Source: Acidobacteriota bacterium (lineage in GTDB: Bacteria > Acidobacteriota > Thermoanaerobaculia > Multivoradales > JAGPDF01). From it: DNA of 63,534 nt. The notes below the pieces were generated by a model. It was not told the DNA's origin, made no database searches, and worked only from the letters and a program-made list of their open reading frames with translations. Positions 25,106 to 27,179 of the stretch are shown one piece after another. How positions within the stretch are numbered: the first letter of the stretch is position 1; each line of letters begins with the position of its first letter. The position numbers and the translations under genes were made by a program. The stretch is from the NCBI GenBank assembly GCA_014584695.1, contig JACTMI010000005.1, positions 1 to 63,534 of the forward strand, written 5' to 3'.

Positions 25106-25810
25106 ATGCCGGCATCCCTGCGCTCCCTGCCGCGGAGGGGCATCGCGCGCTTTTTCGGCGAGCTCGGCCCGGGCGGGATCTCGTCGTTCGCGCTGGCGTT
25201 CGGCACCGGATTGCTCGGGCTCTCGCTGCCGGTGCTCTGGCGGGCGCGGCAGGTGGCGCGCGAGGCGGCTAGCGACGAGCGTCACCCGGCCGATCTGGTC
25301 GTCGTCCTCGGCAGAATGCTCGAAGGGGATCTGCCGAGCGCGGTCTTTCGCGCCCGGCTCGAACATGGCGCCCACCTCTGGCGCGAGGGCTGGGCGCCAT
25401 GGCTGCTGGTTTCGGGCGGTCGAACGGGGACCGCGAGTCGGTCCGAAGCGGCGGCGGGACGCGAGCTCCTGCTGGCCTCCGGCGTTCCGGCGGAAGTGAT
25501 CCTGACCGAGGAAGGGAGCCGTCACACGCTCGAGAACCTGGTCAACGTCCGCGCGGCGATGCGCGGGCGGGGCTGGCGGCGCCTGATCCTGGTCAGCGAT
25601 CCTCTCCACGTGGCGCGAGTCCGCGCGCTGGCGCGCGGGCTCGGCCTCGACGTCAGCTGCTCTCCCGCCCCGGGCTGCCCGCCCCGGCGCGGCTCGCTCG
25701 CCTGGTGGCGGCGCGCCGGCCGCGAAGGCTTCCTGCTCCACTGGTACCACGTCGGCATCGCCTACAGCCGGGCGATCCGCTCGGAGCGGCTGCTGCGCCG
25801 CGTCACCTGA
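25106..25810 (+). CDS. YdcF/SanA-like DUF218 protein
   Basis: 234 residues with one N-terminal membrane helix (ISSFALAFGTGLLGLSLPVL). DUF218 motifs are present: ADLVVVLG, WLLVSGGRTG, EEGSRHTLENLVNVRA and RLILVSDPLHVARV. Members of this family act in envelope or cell-wall processes; the reaction is not defined for this one. Co-transcribed with the acid phosphatase. Confidence 0.85.
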   Translation: MPASLRSLPRRGIARFFGELGPGGISSFALAFGTGLLGLSLPVLWRARQVAREAASDERHPADLVVVLGRMLEGDLPSAVFRARLEHGAHLWREGWAPWLLVSGGRTGTASRSEAAAGRELLLASGVPAEVILTEEGSRHTLENLVNVRAAMRGRGWRRLILVSDPLHVARVRALARGLGLDVSCSPAPGCPPRRGSLAWWRRAGREGFLLHWYHVGIAYSRAIRSERLLRRVT

Positions 25811-25842: not shown

Positions 25843-25848
25843 TAGGAT
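25843..25848 (+). promoter_or_regulatory. -10 box for selC
   Basis: TAGGAT seven bases before the tRNA 5' end, so transcription would begin at or very near the mature first base. No convincing -35 hexamer. Confidence 0.4.
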
Positions 25849-25854
25849 CGGCGC

Positions 25855-25954
25855 GGAAGCGCGCGGGGGCTGGTGCCCTCCACGGTCTTCAAAACCGTCG
25901 TCCGGCGCCCCCGAGGGCGGCGGAGGTGGGTTCGATTCCCATGCGCTTCCGCCA
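25855..25954 (+). tRNA. selC: selenocysteine tRNA, anticodon TCA, CCA encoded
   Basis: The 100-base gene folds as a bacterial tRNA-Sec. The 8-bp acceptor stem (GGAAGCGC / GCGCTTCC) is followed by discriminator G and encoded CCA. The D stem is 6 bp (GGGGGC / GCCCTC). The anticodon stem ACGGT/ACCGT closes loop CTTCAAA, giving anticodon TCA at 25889-25891. A long variable arm pairs in 9 of 10 positions, and the T arm is TGGG-TTCGATT-CCCA. The 8-bp acceptor, 6-bp D stem and long variable arm separate it from ordinary suppressor or Ser tRNAs. It implies UGA decoding as selenocysteine in this organism. selA, selB and selD are not in the window. Confidence 0.95.
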
Positions 25955-25976: not shown

Positions 25977-27179
25977 TCACGGCAGCGCGATCGCCTCGGC
26001 CAGCTGCCCGCGCGCGCGCGGAGGGGCGCCGGCGGGGACCCGCAGCAGCAGCTCCGCGCCCGCGAAGGCGACCAGGTCGTGCGAGCCTCGCGCCGCGAGC
26101 GGCAGGGCGGAGCGCGCGGCCCCGGGGCCCCCTCGCCGCGCCGGCACGAAGCGGTCGCGGTCCTTGGCGCCGGGCAGGGCGGCGGCGAGCTCGACCTCGA
26201 AGGCGTCACCCCAGAAACGAGCGTCGCCGCCGCGCAGGCGCTCGAGCGCCGGGGCGACGAAGAGCGCGAAAGTGACCATCGCCGAGGTCGGGTTCCCCGG
26301 CAGGCCGAACAAGAGGCCGCGCGGGCCGCGCGCGGCGACCATCGGTTTGCCGGGCTGGATCGCCACGGCATCGAACAGCGGCTGGCAGCCGAGGCGGGCG
26401 AAGACCGGCTCGGCGAGGTCGAAGTCCCCGGCGGAGACCCCGCCGGTGGTGATCAGGACGTCCGCTTCGAGCCCGCGCGCCACCGCCCTTTCCAGGCGTT
26501 CCGGATCGTCCGGCGCGATTCCCAGGCTCTCGAACTCGATCCCCAAGCGGCGGCCCGCCGCGAGCAGGAAATCGGTGTGGGAGTCGCGCAGCCCGCCGGG
26601 AGGGGGCTCGCGGTCGGGCGCGACCACCTCGTCACCGGTGGCGAGCACCGCGACGCGCGGCGTCCCGACCACGAGGATCTGGTCGATGCCCTGGCTCGCG
26701 AGCAGGGCGAGCGCCGCCGGTCCCAACCGGGTGCCGGCTTCGAGCAGCGGGCCGCCGCGCGTCACGACCTCGCCCCGCCGTCGGATCGCCGCGCCGGCCG
26801 CAGGCCCCGCAGCGAGCAGCAGCACCTGGTCGACGGCTCCGGCGACCCGCTCCGTGGCCTCGACCGCGATCACCCGGTCGGCCCCGGCGGGCAGCGGCGC
26901 GCCGGTCATGATCCGCGCCGCGGTTCCGGGCGGCAGCGCCGCTCCCGGGGCGTCTCCGGCCGCCAGCGTCAGGGCGACCGGCAGGGTGGTGCCCGCCGGC
27001 GCATCGGTCGCGAGGGCGTAGCCGTCGAGCGCCGACACATCCATCGGCGGCAGGTCGCCGCGCGCCGCGATCGGCTCGGCGAGCCGGGCGCCGAGTGCCG
27101 CGCGCCGGCTCGAACGCACCGCCGGGAGCGGCGGCAACCAGGGTTCCAGTCGGCTCCAGGCCTCTTCGGGGGCGAGCAT
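25977..27179 (-). CDS. moeA: molybdopterin molybdenumtransferase
   Basis: 400 residues. MoeA landmarks are in order: PPMDVSALDGYALA, RIMTGAPLPAGADRVI, VLATGDEVV, TTGGVSAGDFDL, and QPGKPMVAA with GLPGNPTSAMVTF. It inserts molybdate into adenylated molybdopterin in the cytoplasm. It converges on selC with 22 bases between them. This is suggestive because formate dehydrogenases often need both Mo cofactor and selenocysteine, but no such enzyme is encoded here. Confidence 0.95.
   Translation of the reverse strand: MLAPEEAWSRLEPWLPPLPAVRSSRRAALGARLAEPIAARGDLPPMDVSALDGYALATDAPAGTTLPVALTLAAGDAPGAALPPGTAARIMTGAPLPAGADRVIAVEATERVAGAVDQVLLLAAGPAAGAAIRRRGEVVTRGGPLLEAGTRLGPAALALLASQGIDQILVVGTPRVAVLATGDEVVAPDREPPPGGLRDSHTDFLLAAGRRLGIEFESLGIAPDDPERLERAVARGLEADVLITTGGVSAGDFDLAEPVFARLGCQPLFDAVAIQPGKPMVAARGPRGLLFGLPGNPTSAMVTFALFVAPALERLRGGDARFWGDAFEVELAAALPGAKDRDRFVPARRGGPGAARSALPLAARGSHDLVAFAGAELLLRVPAGAPPRARGQLAEAIALP

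Follow-up and report, generated by a model that had tools for sequence, protein, structure and literature searches.

A selenocysteine tRNA gene beside moeA in an Acidobacteriota genome and the UGA-decoding system to which it very probably belongs

Given a tRNA gene with a UCA anticodon lying next to moeA on an Acidobacteriota contig, we questioned whether it is an intact selenocysteine (Sec) tRNA gene, and whether the genome that carries it reads UGA as Sec. ARAGORN called only one tRNA in the window (the whole stretch of 63,534 nucleotides analysed), a tRNA-SeC (tca) on the forward strand (selC, Table 1). The Rfam tRNA-Sec model (RF01852) matched positions 25855-25950 from end to end (model positions 1-91 of 91) with 72.9 bits (E = 5e-13), exceeding the gathering cut-off of 47 bits. 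Read from the sequence, the cloverleaf comprises an 8-bp acceptor stem (GGAAGCGC/GCGCTTCC), a D stem closed by the loop TGGT, a 5-bp anticodon stem with the loop CTTCAAA, and a 5-bp T stem, giving the 8+5 acceptor/T organisation; the 3' end carries discriminator G73 and an encoded CCA. These features were shared with Escherichia coli selC (b3658), which likewise starts with GGAAG and has an 8-bp acceptor stem, a 6-bp D stem, the UCA anticodon in a CTTCAAA loop, a long variable arm and G73-CCA. The two genes differ in length (100 nt here, 95 nt in E. coli), in variable-arm sequence and in location, the E. coli gene lying between yicJ and setC and the present one convergent to moeA.

The fold was also borne out by comparison with relatives. 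In an alignment of the source gene with 18 orthologues of the same order (19 sequences, 33 pairs), 96.6% of cells were paired, and 14 pairs had changed on both sides, most of this covariation being located in the variable arm. Shuffled alignments averaged 4.8 such pairs, with 0 of 500 reaching the observed count and none matching the observed values for pairing and covariation together, and pairing collapsed to 46-61% when partners were slid by 1-3 columns. Two independent programs, ARAGORN and Rfam, thus identify a tRNA-Sec whose stems covary. The hallmarks listed in the first-pass annotation (acceptor of 8 bp, D stem of 6 bp, long variable arm, TCA anticodon and encoded CCA) are all there, and selC is an ordinary, intact bacterial tRNA-Sec gene of an already well-known kind.

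Table 1. Positions of selC, its main elements and the flanking genes within the window
Feature	Position	Strand	Basis
YdcF/ElyC-like (DUF218-type) gene upstream of selC	25106..25810	+	Weak NCBIfam match (PRK10494, E 5e-5); synteny in G003 and G004
Candidate -10 box (TAGGAT) just 5' of selC	25843..25848	+	Similar box at nearly all 19 loci, by eye
selC, tRNA-Sec(UCA) gene with encoded G73-CCA	25855..25954	+	ARAGORN; Rfam RF01852; covariation, 19 sequences
D arm, 6 bp with 4-nt loop	25865..25880	+	Sequence; 100% of cells paired; both-side changes in 4/6 pairs
Anticodon TCA (reads UGA)	25889..25891	+	ARAGORN; invariant in 19-sequence alignment
Long variable arm, 9 bp with one internal G.G mismatch	25901..25924	+	Both-side changes in 8/9 pairs
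moeA/glp-type molybdopterin molybdotransferase, convergent, 22 bp from selC	25977..27179	-	NCBIfam; ORF

Upstream of the tRNA, a TAnnnT-like hexamer starting approximately 9-18 nt before the 5' end was recognised by eye at nearly all 19 loci, and this similar placement suggests that selC has its own promoter just upstream. The YdcF/ElyC-like gene on that side is outside the Sec system. On the other side, moeA matched the NCBIfam MoeA/Glp models at E ~1e-73, with scores under their curated equivalog cut-offs. Among the 19 relatives examined, 10, from six families, have moeA no more than 10 kb away from tRNA-Sec, so the adjacency that had been taken as a hint of a Mo/Sec enzyme is more than a hint. 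In four others of the 19, sel genes were found near tRNA-Sec instead of moeA, and in one relative (G026, contig C342; L201 6964-11814) selD, selB, tRNA-Sec and selA were clustered within 5 kb. The order shows two arrangements, selC beside moeA, which recurs, and selC in a sel cluster. Judged from these sequences, the selC-moeA linkage is a recurrent neighbourhood correlation, short of proof of functional coupling; a few literature searches, judged by title and abstract, returned no paper evidently on this linkage, which does not itself prove novelty.

A search of 59 genomes of the order recovered tRNA-Sec from 55, and the remaining four are all drafts. Given this distribution, and the recurrence of either moeA or sel genes as neighbours, selC was probably already present in the ancestor of the order. 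This documents Sec decoding as almost universal in an order that has been little studied, with apparently vertical inheritance.

We assessed whether the source genome (4.35 Mb, a draft of 48 contigs, 97.8% complete) encodes the partners of tRNA-Sec. A selA gene (C7:62926-64236) scored 443 bits against a curated cut-off of 268, selB (C6, from 107880) scored 337.5 bits in all against 242, and selD (C6:68982-69905) scored 330.8 bits against 125; a SelD domain was also found in a second gene, a fusion on C23 described below. Matches to SelD included Acidobacteriota/Thermoanaerobaculia MAGs at ~47% identity, with other phyla scoring similarly. Given the presence of selA, selB and selD, each over its curated cut-off, and of three selenoprotein genes, the genome lacks neither of the things whose joint absence the first-pass annotation had said would overturn its reading. 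It is conceivable that selC is a relic, the tRNA remaining intact after Sec decoding was lost from this genome, and selC does lie apart from selA, selB and selD here while being adjacent to sel genes in some relatives. However, the partner genes all score over their cut-offs and are free of internal stops apart from the TGA at the Sec site, and in three selenoproteins the Sec codon has been retained instead of giving way to Cys, making such a loss highly improbable.

In-frame TGA codons were found in three genes, selD, fdhA (the catalytic subunit of formate dehydrogenase) and a gene for a SelW-like CxxU protein, a list that is a lower bound as it derives from family searches. In SelD, the TGA occupies the active-site Cys position (...TSGG-U-AAKVGPGDL...) at 25 loci including the source genome (24 further), with Cys in two family members. 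In FdhA (...NNVDSCNRT-U-HAPSV..., TGA at L117:9367), nearly all close homologues from relatives that cover the site have one TGA, and in the SelW-like protein (...EYCLV-U-NYGPRAAGL..., TGA at C13:49667) the codon is kept in 21 of 21 genomes. The prediction of a Mo/Sec formate dehydrogenase elsewhere in the genome was thus realised, and an fdhD gene, named by reading the sequence, lies divergently upstream of fdhA. Because the source genome is a draft of many contigs, the in-frame TGAs might be sequencing or assembly errors and the selenoproteins illusory; this is refuted by comparison, since tens of relatives, each with its own assembly, have TGA at the corresponding codon across three unrelated protein families, and we give the possibility almost no weight.

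As anticipated for genes interrupted by UGA, mechanical ORF calling truncated these selenoprotein genes, with the listed fdhA ORF beginning only downstream of its TGA. Across the order, fdhA, selD and selW are cut short by standard gene calling, so that annotation would overlook both formate oxidation and the use of selenium. No in-frame TGA was found in the peroxiredoxin (PF00578) or AhpD-like (PF02627) families. The window itself held no convincing selenoprotein gene; two short TGA candidates there (47335 and 57976) look like chance.

Hairpins resembling SECIS elements, which the first-pass annotation had proposed seeking after in-frame UGAs, were clear in fdhA and selW. Both have an uninterrupted 7-bp stem (CGTCGCC/GGCGACG in fdhA, GGCCGCG/CGCGGCC in selW) and a GGUCU apical loop, which starts 21 nt (fdhA) or 24 nt (selW) after the first base of the UGA. 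A GGTCT loop at such a distance, closed by 6 bp or more, occurred at 48 of 320,312 positions of sampled sequence (1.5e-4). Distant FdhA homologues (~44% identity) keep the hairpin, with a compensatory change from CGTCGCC/GGCGACG to GGTCGCC/GGTGACC. The loop position in fdhA is the same as in the E. coli fdhF SECIS (21 nt in both), whereas the upper stem is longer and uninterrupted in the source gene; the enzyme also differs from E. coli FDH-H in being of the NAD-linked, NuoEF-associated type. The selD hairpin of the source genome has no GGUCU loop. Among 24 distinct selD UGA regions, the hairpins fold but differ in kind; with three or more distinct hairpin sequences among them, the alifold consensus was weak (~-3 kcal/mol). 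A further GGUCU hairpin lies behind a TGA within moeA, near 26455 on the minus strand; it does not share the moeA frame and was rejected as a false positive.

Together, comparative sequence evidence indicates, with a probability of roughly 97%, that selC belongs to a complete, apparently vertically inherited system for decoding UGA as Sec. Transcribed from its own promoter, the tRNA would be charged with serine by SerRS. SelA, with selenophosphate supplied by SelD, would then turn it into Sec-tRNA, and SelB would bring it to UGA codons that precede a SECIS hairpin, those of selD, fdhA and selW at the least. The neighbouring moeA would contribute the Mo cofactor needed by the Sec formate dehydrogenase. 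Counting against this reading, UGA also serves as a normal stop in this genome. As a rival, selC could be an opal suppressor or a tRNA-Ser/Leu-like gene inserting an ordinary residue, given that a UCA anticodon reads any UGA. Other long-armed tRNAs also match RF01852 weakly, as they presumably do here in the next best matches of the source genome (48.7 and 47.4 bits, far weaker than selC). Yet the 8-bp acceptor and 6-bp D stems, the score of 72.9 bits against 47, the presence of SelA, SelB and SelD, and UGAs at known Sec sites all weigh strongly against an ordinary residue at UGA, and we regard it as very remote. The assignment to Sec decoding fits published descriptions from 2006 (PMC1794560) and from Zhang et al. 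2008 (PMC2398784), the latter having described SelW-like proteins and Ndh-SelD fusions with a CxxC motif.

Across the order, selenium seems to be used as Sec. A search of 58 genomes of the order, source included, for MnmH (mnmH/ybbB, 2-selenouridine synthase) gave no match at E <= 1e-20, while the E. coli control was positive; selenouridine is thus unlikely to explain the retention of SelD. Within the order, then, selenocysteine is the selenium trait that was detected, and the selenouridine enzyme was not.

Among close relatives, SelD appears to have undergone a recent exchange between Sec and Cys. Cys-SelD was found at G001:C179:9558-10478 (L145) and G004:C18:11168-12115 (L144), and in G001 it coexists with a second, Sec-containing copy (C447).

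The alpha chain of the source formate dehydrogenase (contig C18; L117:9118-13836) is split and permuted: its catalytic Sec part is encoded first, followed by a NuoE-NuoF fusion and, last, by the N-terminal Fe-S part. Positions 50-672 of TIGR01591 match the Sec protein, and positions 1-49 match the C-terminal end of the 302-aa Fe-S protein, which carries NuoG-like clusters and is encoded after the NuoE-NuoF fusion. This order is conserved in two families (f1 and f6); in one genome (G009), the parts are contiguous in the usual order. A few literature searches, by title and abstract, found no paper evidently on a split Sec-FdhA, which again does not prove novelty.

The C23 gene (L121:7234-9453) encodes 740 aa, in which a pyridine-nucleotide oxidoreductase domain (TIGR03169) is followed by a fused SelD domain with a CGGC (CxxC) active site; it scored above the NCBIfam SelD cut-off and below the 'fusion_not_SelD' cut-off. 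Its domains and motif resemble those of the Ndh-SelD fusions (Zhang et al. 2008, PMC2398784), from which it differs in coexisting with a Sec-SelD. In family f4 (which includes G010, G018 and the one-contig G047), tRNA-Sec is present, and SelW has its TGA in both genomes examined for it (G010 and G018); the only SelD match there at E <= 1e-50 is fusion-sized and has no TGA. We lean slightly towards a joint reading in which tRNA-Sec serves a formate dehydrogenase whose split, permuted alpha chain has NuoE-NuoF encoded between its parts in two families, and in which Sec decoding in f4 rests on the NADH-dehydrogenase-SelD fusion as its only SelD. Should f4 also have selA and selB, the fusion would have to function as a selenophosphate synthetase.
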